Shown here piece after piece: positions 43,349-47,230 of a stretch of 48,980 nucleotides of DNA (within the stretch, counting starts at the first letter, position 1; each line of letters starts with the position of its first letter). A model generated the notes under the pieces. The model ran no database searches. It was not told the DNA's origin and saw only the letters and a list, made by a program, of their open reading frames with translations. The stretch spans positions 1-48,980 of the forward strand of contig JAJPKD010000148.1 in NCBI GenBank assembly GCA_021323895.1. Direction: 5' to 3'. Made by a program: the position numbers and the translations under genes. Source of the stretch: Acidobacteriota bacterium (GTDB lineage: Bacteria > Acidobacteriota > Blastocatellia > Pyrinomonadales > Pyrinomonadaceae).

Positions 43349-43491
43349 AGGCGCAGCCTCGTAAGGCTTTGGCCGCGTCGAACGCAATTAGCTAATTATG
43401 TTAAGGGGGTTGCCCGCAGAGTAATACGCCCCCAGCGATTCGGGCAAGTCAGCGCCCAATCGACACCGGCTTGGCGCATCTGTTAACTTCG

Positions 43492-44403
43492 ATGACCTTC
43501 AAGATGAAGATCACGATCAAGACGCCGCCAAACTTCAATTTTCATCGCACGGTTTTGAGCCATGGTTGGTGCGCGCTGCTTCCCTTCGAGTTGGACAAAG
43601 AGAAGTGGAAACTCGTACGCGTACTCGATCGCGGACAGACGAAGCCCATCACCATCGAGATCACTGCGACCAGAACCGGACTAACCATCAATACTTCTCG
43701 CACTGTCGGAAAACGCGCCGCGGAAAGCATCGTTCGCGACGTGCGCCACATGTTCCGGCTGGATGATGACCTGACGCAGTTCTATGCCGCGATGGCGGCC
43801 GATTCTGATTTCGCGTGGATCACCGACCAAGGCGCGGGACGATTGCTGCGCTCGCCGACCGTCTTCGAAGATCTGGTGAAAATGATTTGCACGACAAATT
43901 GCTCTTGGGCGCTGACTGAGAAAATGGTCACAGCTTTGGTAAATGAATTGGGGGAAGAATCTGACGATGGCCGGAAATCTTTTCCGACTGCGGAAACAAT
44001 GGCCAAACAGACCGCGGCCTTCTATCGCGACAAAGTTCGCGCCGGTTATCGCGCGCCGTATTTCAGCGAACTGGCGCAGCGCGTCGCTTCGGGTGAACTT
44101 GATGTCGAGGGTTGGTTGAAACTTGATTTGCCGCACGATTCATTCATGAAAGAAATGAAGCGCGTCAAGGGTGTTGGCAACTACGCCGCGGAGAATCTAC
44201 TGAAGCTCGTAGGCCGCTACGATGGTCTGGCGCTCGACTCGTGGACGCGCGCTCAATTCGCACAGCTTCGTAACCACGGACGCGCCGCCAGCGACAAAAA
44301 AATCCTGCGATTCTACGCTCGCTTCAATTCGTGGCGAGGGCTGGCGCTGTGGTGCGACATGACGCGTCACTGGCTGAATCCTGAAAATATCGCCAAATGG
44401 TAA
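43492..44403 (+). CDS. HhH-GPD DNA glycosylase (AlkA/OGG-like)
   Basis: The 303-aa protein has an N-terminal beta domain (HRTVLSHGWCALLPFELDK) and the helix-hairpin-helix motif in MKRVKGVGNYAAENLLKLVG. The catalytic Asp follows in LALDSWTR, the layout of HhH-GPD base-excision enzymes. They remove damaged bases such as 3-methyladenine or 8-oxoguanine; which one is unclear. CTTNCSWALTEKMVTALV matches the region before the HhH motif in related proteins. The start may be ATG 43492 or 43504; neither has a good ribosome site. There is no iron-sulfur Cys cluster at the C terminus. Confidence 0.82.
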   Translation: MTFKMKITIKTPPNFNFHRTVLSHGWCALLPFELDKEKWKLVRVLDRGQTKPITIEITATRTGLTINTSRTVGKRAAESIVRDVRHMFRLDDDLTQFYAAMAADSDFAWITDQGAGRLLRSPTVFEDLVKMICTTNCSWALTEKMVTALVNELGEESDDGRKSFPTAETMAKQTAAFYRDKVRAGYRAPYFSELAQRVASGELDVEGWLKLDLPHDSFMKEMKRVKGVGNYAAENLLKLVGRYDGLALDSWTRAQFAQLRNHGRAASDKKILRFYARFNSWRGLALWCDMTRHWLNPENIAKW

Positions 44404-44589: not shown

Positions 44590-44973
44590 ATGAAACGTTT
44601 CATGAATACACTTTTCTTGGCGCTGATTATCGGCGCGCTCGCTTCGATCAGCGCATTCGCCGGCGATAAGGGCAAAGGCGAAAAGAAGACGGTGACGTTT
44701 ACGGAAGATATCACGGTGAACGGCACTCTGGTCAAAGCTGGTGAATATGAACTTAAGTACGACGAAACCAGCGGCGAGTTGAGCATTATCAAGAACGGCA
44801 AGGTCAAGGCAAAAACGCCGGCGCACGTAGAAACGCGAGCCGACAAAGCCAAGAACACTGCTTTGCGTACTCGCGAGGAGGGCGGCAGTTCGCAACTGAT
44901 CGGAGTCACGTTCGGTGGATCGAACCAGGACGTCGTGGTTGGCGCCAGCGCATCATCGGGCGGCACGCAGTAG
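44590..44973 (+). CDS. Small secreted protein of unknown function
   Basis: The 127-aa product has a signal peptide (MKRFMNTLFLALIIG..., cleavage near AFAGD). A lysine-rich beta domain follows (KKTVTFTEDITVNGTLVKAG, YELKYDETSGELSIIKNGK) and a Ser/Gly-rich end. AGGAGG lies seven bases before the ATG, and an efficient terminator follows. This points to high expression as a single gene. Similar short proteins are, from memory, frequent in Acidobacteriota, but no function is known. Confidence 0.78.
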   Translation: MKRFMNTLFLALIIGALASISAFAGDKGKGEKKTVTFTEDITVNGTLVKAGEYELKYDETSGELSIIKNGKVKAKTPAHVETRADKAKNTALRTREEGGSSQLIGVTFGGSNQDVVVGASASSGGTQ

Positions 44974-45098: not shown

Positions 45099-46214
45099 CT
45101 ATTCGGTGATGGCAGGTGGCGCGCCGGTGCGATAACGCAAACCGATGCCAATGATCTTCTGCAGGAGCGCTTCGTAATCGACGCCGCAATGCTTCGCCGA
45201 ATCCGCAAAGTCTTCCTGGTTGGCGATCTGAGGATTGGGATTGGCTTCAAGCAAATAAAGCTGGCCGTCATCCGTCATCCGGTAATCAAGCCGCGCGTAA
45301 CCACTTAAGAAAAGCGTGCGATAGATCTTCTTCGAAAGGCGCTCGAGCCTTTCGCGTGTCTTCTTCTCAAGTTCGGCTGCTTTCGTGACTACGCCAACTT
45401 TTTCCTGATACGCGGGGTCCCATTTCAGTTTCGAAGTCGCGATGTTCGGCGCGCCTTCGGGCAGCTTCTCAATCACCAATTCCCACGGCGTGTAGCATTG
45501 CAGACGCTGATTGCCTATGACGCTCACGTAAATCTCGCGGCCGGCGATGTACTGCTCAGCGATCGCGTGGGTCTTGGTTTGGCGATGAATGAAATCGACG
45601 CGCTCCGCGAGCTTTGCATCGTCGTTCACGATCGATGCGCGCGCGATTCCCACTGATCCTTCTTCGCTGATCGATTTGACGAGCAGCGGGAACTGCAACC
45701 GCTTCGAACGCTTGACTACGCGATTCATGTGAAAGACGGCGAACGCCGGTACATGGATGCGGTGATAAGCGAGCACCATTTTCGAGAGCGCCTTATCGCG
45801 GCAAATGGTCAGGCCTCGCGGATTGCAACCCGTGTACGGCTGCTTCATCAATTCGAGATAGCTGACGACGTGCTGATCGTAAAGTGGGTAGCCGTGAAAC
45901 TCTTCGAGCAGATTGAAAGCGATGTGCGGTTTGTGTTCGAGCAGCGCGTTACCAATGATGCCGAGGTTGTTGTAAACGCCGACCGGATGAACTTCGTGAC
46001 CGATTTTTTTCAACGTCGAGATTACATCCCACTCTGTTTTGAACGGCGCGATCTCTTTCGGCGTCAGGTCGTCGATGCTATCCGGCGGCACCAGGTCTTC
46101 GTGGCAAAGGACGATCACGCGCAGCTTCTTAAAAGGCTCGCCGTTTTTGCCGGCGCCTTTGCGCGATTTTCGCGCGCCCTTTCGCTCGGGCTTCTGATTT
46201 GGTTCGCTGCTCAT
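45099..46214 (-). CDS. ATP-grasp ligase (D-Ala-D-Ala ligase-like)
   Basis: This 371-aa protein has a Lys/Arg-rich N-terminal tail (MSSEPNQKPERKGARKSRKG) and an ATP-grasp domain of the D-Ala-D-Ala ligase type. Visible parts are LRVIVLCHEDLVPPD, TGCNPRGLTICRDKALSKMVL, FPLLVKSISEEGSVGIA, IAEQYIAGREIYVSVIG and the metal site YLLEANPNPQIA. Such enzymes join a carboxylate to an amine through an acyl phosphate. The ATG at 46214 overlaps the stop codon of the metallopeptidase gene by four bases (ATGA). This pairing with a Peptidase_Mx-type protein recalls predicted amidoligase systems for unknown peptide tags or metabolites. A role in peptidoglycan is less likely because of the partner. Confidence 0.87.
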   Translation of the reverse strand: MSSEPNQKPERKGARKSRKGAGKNGEPFKKLRVIVLCHEDLVPPDSIDDLTPKEIAPFKTEWDVISTLKKIGHEVHPVGVYNNLGIIGNALLEHKPHIAFNLLEEFHGYPLYDQHVVSYLELMKQPYTGCNPRGLTICRDKALSKMVLAYHRIHVPAFAVFHMNRVVKRSKRLQFPLLVKSISEEGSVGIARASIVNDDAKLAERVDFIHRQTKTHAIAEQYIAGREIYVSVIGNQRLQCYTPWELVIEKLPEGAPNIATSKLKWDPAYQEKVGVVTKAAELEKKTRERLERLSKKIYRTLFLSGYARLDYRMTDDGQLYLLEANPNPQIANQEDFADSAKHCGVDYEALLQKIIGIGLRYRTGAPPAITE

Positions 46215-47230
46215 AGGGCGATCCTGTAGTAACCCGAATGGACGACGTTCATCGTCTGCACCGTCAGCATGACCATCAGGTGACGTTTGAGTTGCTCTTC
46301 CCGACCAACCGCGCGCAGTTTCAGTTGTGCCGCGCGTTCGATCATCAGTTCCATCACGTGATCGATCGCATAGCCATGCACACCGGTGCCTTCGGAAACT
46401 AGTTGCTGAATTTCCGGTGCGACCCGTCGCAGAAAACTGACCGCAGTTTCGCGGTTTCGATGCCGTGCTTCGCCTGAAAAGATTCTGCGCAGGTCGTTGT
46501 CCAGATAAGCCGGCCACTCGAACGCATACTTCTCGCGCTTGCGGTCGTAGTGCTCGCGCAGCGTGATGCGAATTTCGGAAAGAGTTTCGATTTTGCGGCG
46601 TACGCGATTTCGCGGACGGGTGCCGGCTATTTCATTCAGAACTTCATCGACGTATTCCAACTTGCGCAGCGCCGGCCAACCGCGATAACGCCTCCGCCAA
46701 TTCGAGCGCGGTTGAAGCCAAACGGCGAACGTCTCGGCAAAGTCTTCCGCCGGATGCGCTTGCGCGTACCAGGCGTCGAGGTTCAGCACGTATCGGCGGC
46801 TGTTCGGTTTTGGTTTGTATGAAGGCGGATACTTCTGCGTGAACGATCCAAACATGCGGATCCACTTACGTTTGAAATGCAGCCGAAAAGCGTTGTCGAT
46901 TGCGTGGCCGGCTTCGTGGCGCAGGATGCGCATGCACTCGACGTCGGTGCCGCCTTCAACCTCGCGCATGAACTTGCGCTCGAGCTTCATCAAACGCGAA
47001 TGCGCCAAATAGAAAGGAATGGCAAAACCAGGCACGCCATCCGGTGTGAACCACTCGGCGGACAACCACACGTGTGGCTTGAAGCGAATGCCGCGATCGT
47101 TCAGCTCGCTGTAGAGGCGTTTGATGTGCGGCTCGATGAAGGAACCCTTGAGGCGAATCGGCAAATCGCAAATACGCGTGTCGAGTAGTCGCTCATCAGA
47201 AATGAGACTCCATTTGAATCGCGCGGGCAC
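46211..47230 (-). CDS. Putative zinc metallopeptidase partner of the ATP-grasp ligase
   Basis: This 339-aa protein without signal peptide carries HEAGH (residues 105-109) and, 50 residues on, HPAEDFAETFAVWL (E162 or E166 as third ligand). It resembles the Peptidase_Mx-type putative zinc peptidases. A basic C-terminal half follows, with helices around DHVMELMIERAAQLK. The four-base stop/start overlap with the ATP-grasp ligase implies a joint role: one enzyme may add and the other trim or remove an amide-linked group. Neither a substrate peptide nor a second ligase is seen next to them. Confidence 0.82.
   Translation of the reverse strand: MPARFKWSLISDERLLDTRICDLPIRLKGSFIEPHIKRLYSELNDRGIRFKPHVWLSAEWFTPDGVPGFAIPFYLAHSRLMKLERKFMREVEGGTDVECMRILRHEAGHAIDNAFRLHFKRKWIRMFGSFTQKYPPSYKPKPNSRRYVLNLDAWYAQAHPAEDFAETFAVWLQPRSNWRRRYRGWPALRKLEYVDEVLNEIAGTRPRNRVRRKIETLSEIRITLREHYDRKREKYAFEWPAYLDNDLRRIFSGEARHRNRETAVSFLRRVAPEIQQLVSEGTGVHGYAIDHVMELMIERAAQLKLRAVGREEQLKRHLMVMLTVQTMNVVHSGYYRIAL

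Follow-up and report, generated by a model that had tools for sequence, protein, structure and literature searches.

A zinc metallopeptidase gene overlaps that of an ATP-grasp ligase

The two genes under study lie on the reverse strand of the window, by which we mean the whole 48,980-nucleotide stretch of DNA analysed. The first of the pair encodes a zinc metallopeptidase of 339 aa (46211..47230; PF15887) and the second a Ddl-fold ATP-grasp ligase of 371 aa (45099..46214; PF07478). As the original prediction had it, the ORFs share a 4-base stop/start overlap (46211..46214, reverse strand), read as TCAT on the + strand and ATGA on the coding strand, a sequence that holds both the TGA ending the peptidase and the ATG starting the ligase. 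Among named loci from Acidobacteriota, Planctomycetota, and others, 45 of 81 peptidase ORFs end in ATGA with a ligase in that frame, a recurrence beyond chance. The proposed pairing of an ATP-grasp ligase with a Peptidase_Mx-type protein also agreed with Pfam, which returned Dala_Dala_lig_C for the ligase (E 6e-28) and a borderline Peptidase_Mx match for the peptidase (27.2 bits against a cut-off of 27, covering residues 103-173 only). Searches of Pfam, NCBIfam, and PDB placed the ligase among ATP-grasp proteins, as a distant relative of Ddl. Relative to other members of the genus, dN/dS was 0.03-0.07 for peptidase and ligase genes alike, and by this sequence measure both are under strong purifying selection.

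The ligase keeps the ATP site of Ddl and has lost its D-Ala signature

The AF2 model of the ligase (pLDDT 90, pTM 0.87) matched Ddl along its whole length (Foldseek E 1e-24), and VIA-align comparisons with Ddl structures gave Z scores of about 31-33 (32.9 over 312 residues) at 20-26% identity. At the residue level, 69 family sequences were compared with 14 Ddl sequences of organisms related to the source. Besides the two-part fold of Ddl (PF07478), the family retains its ATP/Mg residues, with K141, K180, E220, E227, R308, D310, E323, and N325 being Ddl-like in 100% of the 69 ligases. In contrast, the D-Ala-binding signature was not recovered: the GGxSxEHExS loop is absent, the first Ser of the GSS motif is changed to Gly or Ala, and the PGxTS of Ddl is replaced by NPNP. 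This last exchange falls within the stretch E323-A-N325-P-N-P ... E334-D335 (45210..45248, reverse strand), where the Mg ligands are kept and the PGxTS substrate loop is replaced. In the same stretch, Glu334 occupies in 96% of the family the position equivalent to Ser281 of E. coli Ddl. Further residues are invariant in the ligases and new relative to Ddl (P43-P44, E61, D63, E104, and R312), including acidic and Arg positions; the added acidic residues could mean that the substrate is positively charged.

The ligase scored 132.6 bits with the best NCBIfam Ddl model, whose cut-off is 243, and a canonical Ddl is encoded elsewhere in the genome (L002). Given the loss of the Ddl signature and the presence of this separate canonical enzyme, the ligase of the pair probably has a specificity other than that of plain Ddl. 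On these sequence grounds, the view taken in the original prediction, that it is not simply a D-Ala-D-Ala enzyme, holds.

The ligase also carries a Lys/Arg-rich extension, which the original prediction had described as a tail and a possible target or nucleic-acid anchor. The basic stretch exists, but it is N-terminal (residues 1-28; 46131..46214, reverse strand). It is genus-specific, being missing from relatives outside the genus, and predicted to be disordered (residues 11-24, pLDDT <50), and a general role as target or nucleic-acid anchor was rejected on both counts.

The peptidase combines a predicted zincin core with a helical C-terminal domain

All 59 members of the peptidase family matched PF15887, a family of putative zinc-binding metallopeptidases for which we know of no assayed function. 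The AF2 model of the peptidase reached a pLDDT of 88. Across the 59 sequences, H105, E106, and H109 of the HEAGH zinc motif (residues 105-109; 46904..46918, reverse strand) are invariant, as are Y155, E162, and E166 of the stretch Y155 ... E162-D-F-A-E166 (46733..46768, reverse strand). We propose that Y155 is the catalytic Tyr, E162 the third zinc ligand, and E166 a second-shell Glu. The HExxH motif and the Tyr-Glu spacing of 7, which is that of LF and PPEP-1, are common to the peptidase and the M34-type enzymes of MEROPS (Pro-Pro endopeptidases and the lethal-factor catalytic domain). Residues about 23-205 aligned with the catalytic domain of lethal factor at a VIA-align Z of 9.8 (136 residues, 3.5 A) and with PPEP-3 at a Z of 8.4 (133 residues, 3.8 A). 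Lethal factor and PPEP entries formed the best group, with middling scores, and the best Foldseek E was only 0.16. From the model, the core is predicted to be an M34/PPEP-like zincin.

Unlike the M34-type zincins, with which it shares about 15% identity, the peptidase adds a helical C-terminal domain (residues 206-339; 46214..46615, reverse strand, AF2 model), is linked to a ligase, and has no signal peptide that could be seen when the sequence was judged by eye. The helical domain is conserved among bacterial paired peptidases and is absent from phage-borne stand-alone cores; a whole-chain structure comparison, of little weight for this part, gave no convincing fold match for it.

Peptidase and ligase form a widely conserved pair

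The pair was also sought outside this genome, where the original prediction had expected it to be conserved. The nearest named relatives belong to gp4/Blastocatellia (Pyrinomonadaceae) Acidobacteriota, and within the genus and family a ligase adjoined the peptidase in nearly every peptidase genome examined, with flanking genes differing outside the genus. A genome scan recovered relatives in bins of Acidobacteriota, Planctomycetota, Verrucomicrobiota, Nitrospirota, Nitrospinota, Methylomirabilota, Alphaproteobacteria, and Actinomycetota, of which some phylum labels may be binning errors; named carriers were Stieleria tagensis, Rhodopirellula, Roseiconus, and strain ZRK32. Among 396 sampled Acidobacteriota genomes, 53 encoded the close form of the peptidase, 55 the ligase, and 50 both (Fisher p 8e-54, uncorrected for relatedness). 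Among 294 Planctomycetota genomes the counts were 50, 56, and 50, respectively (Fisher p 3e-50). The neighbourhood survey thus bore out the expectation, a ligase accompanying the peptidase in 50/53 and 50/50 peptidase genomes, and in Planctomycetota the ligase was, in all 50, the next gene downstream in the same orientation. Overall, of the Acidobacteriota and Planctomycetota genomes sampled, roughly one in seven to one in six encodes the pair, which also turns up in several further phyla.

At named loci the ligase was the next gene after the peptidase in 72 of 80 cases, the remaining eight comprising three contig ends and five carriers lacking an adjacent ligase. Four of these five had the close ligase type elsewhere in the genome, and the fifth (L120) had a distant homologue only. 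The ligase and peptidase are therefore a true, widely conserved, and functionally linked pair. Co-occurrence marks a functional link; action on the same bond does not follow from it. Given such strong linkage and wide spread, the pair must serve a role kept under strong selection.

In the two phylum samples, 11 genomes encoded the ligase without the peptidase and 3 the peptidase without the ligase (sign test p about 0.06). A distant peptidase was present elsewhere in 3 of the 11, and no peptidase remnant was found beside the ligase in ligase-only genomes (e.g., G175, G362, and G401). Hence, the ligase is able to work without this peptidase, and the excess of ligase-only genomes weakly favors dependence of the peptidase on the ligase. 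In one genus member (G005), the ligase gene is broken by frame changes next to an intact peptidase gene (L051 4752-5864), which may reflect an assembly error or decay.

No third gene was conserved around the pair across phyla, neighbors such as an M28 peptidase, an HhH glycosylase, and MnmE being local only, and no small ORF within 1.5 kb, as a candidate precursor peptide, was conserved across phyla. The peptidase was absent from plasmids and sequenced phages, and neither PADLOC models of anti-phage defence nor PHROG models matched the pair. In the window, a 310-aa protein (43471-44403) adjoins a small secreted-type protein (44590-44973); it is kept nearby within the genus and had no Pfam match. 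Seven Pyrinomonadaceae loci (L070-L075 and L084) share a conserved short ORF downstream of the ligase, hydrophobic and MTLALTLLFAINLYR-like in sequence.

Candidate ligase-peptidase fusions, suggested by long ORFs at L055, L201, L206, L207, L225, and L134, were rejected, as no ORF matched both profiles. The long ORFs of L055 and L225 read as Arg-rich wrong-frame extensions, the peptidase and ligase of L206 and L207 sit in different frames, and Peptidase_Mx was the sole Pfam match in L225, L201, and L134. Coevolution between the two active sites fared similarly. By mutual information, A161 of the peptidase formed the top two pairs, with R139 and H115 of the ligase. In a phylogeny-aware co-change test, which gave no strong support, these dropped to ranks 7123 and 865 of 68,635, respectively; hence, this signal was not relied on.

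The paired peptidases end in a tail of fixed length

The peptidase ends in a conserved tail (residues 331-339, terminating in GYYRIAL-COOH; 46214..46240, reverse strand) that is predicted to be flexible (block mean pLDDT 48). Across 117 nonredundant close peptidases, the distance from a conserved Thr to the stop is 16 residues in 111, the last residue is L, V, M, or I in 112, and Arg stands at -4 in 82, the typical end being -R-[IV]-A-[LV]-COOH. The C-termini of the ligase and of Ddl are, unlike this tail, variable in length. The tail also occurs at loci with nonoverlapping or separated genes, including those with no adjacent ligase, and the nucleotide overlap was therefore rejected as its cause. 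More distant peptidase classes do not conserve the paired-form tail.

The only solitary peptidase paralogue in a genome also holding the full pair (L229) has an eroded tail, YRFHYGM. This does not establish that the tail depends on the ligase, because the paired sister copy (L152) ends similarly, in YRFYYGL, and peptidases from genomes lacking the close ligase type (L221 and L222) keep the usual tail. A search of the genome for a second protein with the same tail gave a single match with a true stop, a 33-aa frame lacking an ATG, GTG, or TTG start, which was discarded as not being a gene. The tail may be a docking tail, a substrate of the ligase, or a segment packed on its own protein.

A candidate make-and-trim module

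The explanation that we favor, at about even odds (roughly 0.5), is a self-contained module that makes and trims a product: the ligase would form an amide, the coupled zincin would hydrolyse a peptide bond, and the two would share a substrate or product. The Ddl-fold ATP-grasp ligase would activate a carboxylate with ATP, giving an acyl phosphate, and then join it to an amine, while the translationally coupled, cytosolic M34/PPEP-like zincin would cut a peptide bond in the substrate or product of the ligase. In the likeliest arrangement, the ligase extends or builds a small peptide or a protein terminus, which the peptidase trims or reverses. The chemistries are inferred from the folds and retained residues, and the shared substrate, more weakly, from gene linkage only. 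The proposed order, with the peptidase acting second, is weakly indicated by ligase-only genomes outnumbering peptidase-only ones (11 vs 3).

The reverse order, in which the peptidase would cut a precursor or cell peptide and the ligase would then modify the exposed end, appears unlikely. The peptidase gene does come first and is coupled to that of the ligase, and graspetide loci (PMC8939145) also contain zincin peptidases alongside their ATP-grasp ligases. However, the surroundings of the pair hold no small ORF that is shared across phyla, and the excess of ligase-only genomes, while not significant, is opposite to what this order predicts. It is distinctly improbable that the partner of the ligase is instead the C-terminal tail of the peptidase, either as a docking peptide or as a carboxylate to be extended, in the manner of TTL and RimK, which extend protein C-termini. 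Fixed length (111/117), an L/V/M/I end (112/117), and predicted flexibility would fit such a role, as would the variable C-termini of ligase and Ddl, the persistence of the tail at nonoverlapping loci, and its erosion in the solitary, ligase-lacking L229. Yet ligase-only genomes occur, L221 and L222 keep the tail without the close ligase type, L152 has a ligase and an L229-like tail, distant classes do not conserve the tail, and packing on the core of the peptidase itself would equally fix its length. The strictest version, a self-contained reversible switch in which the ligase tags the free C-terminus (-R-[IV]-A-[LV]-COOH) of its partner peptidase, is a long shot; if true, it would differ from the known TTL, RimK, and Pup systems.

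Peptide salvage or storage has little to recommend it. Here, the ligase would condense free amino acids into a dipeptide or a short polymer, to be degraded by the peptidase, with no protein target, in agreement with a ligase fold closest to the dipeptide-forming Ddl and with no dedicated protein target gene accompanying the pair. However, the amino-acid pocket residues of Ddl are replaced in the ligase, and the M34/PPEP-like enzymes whose activity is known are not general dipeptidases but endopeptidases that recognize an extended sequence.

Amidoligase systems combining ATP-grasp and peptidase proteins were reportedly predicted by Iyer et al. in 2009. These systems follow the same logic, a nonribosomal amide ligase beside a peptidase, whereas the present pair comprises two genes only, with no third component. 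Graspetide clusters likewise combine an ATP-grasp enzyme with a zincin (PMC8939145), but here no precursor peptide was found and the ligase is Ddl-type. Amide ligase/peptidase pairs having already been predicted, we rate this pair as a variant of such systems; our literature search, with most subscription journals outside its scope, found no paper on this ligase-peptidase pair. Current labels are misleading (D-Ala-D-Ala ligase) or empty (putative metallopeptidase), and the residues and carrier strains named above, together with the C-terminal tail, open the question to direct testing.

Distant classes and phage-borne cores

A second, distant class of peptidases (about 215-310 bits) often adjoins a ligase too, sometimes convergently. 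In a distant class seen at L200, L201, L202, L203, L213, and L214, the peptidase and ligase genes are convergent, tail to tail; the peptidases are 66-92% identical and end in exactly YAYTGRLTG or FAYTGRLTG. Phage contigs encode stand-alone peptidase cores lacking both ligase and C-terminal domain, with viral examples at L231 3560-5236, L232 3992-4615, and L233 3539-4708. The L233 core adjoins terminase and portal genes, and another phage core lies near helicase and primase genes. In our reading of the sequence, the peptidase ORFs of L233 and L234 appear to start with a phosphatase-like stretch. Distant ligase homologues in tandem pairs with no adjacent peptidase were present at L209 (6359-8505), L210 (6182-8354), and L062 (8173-10067), and are possibly a two-ligase variant.
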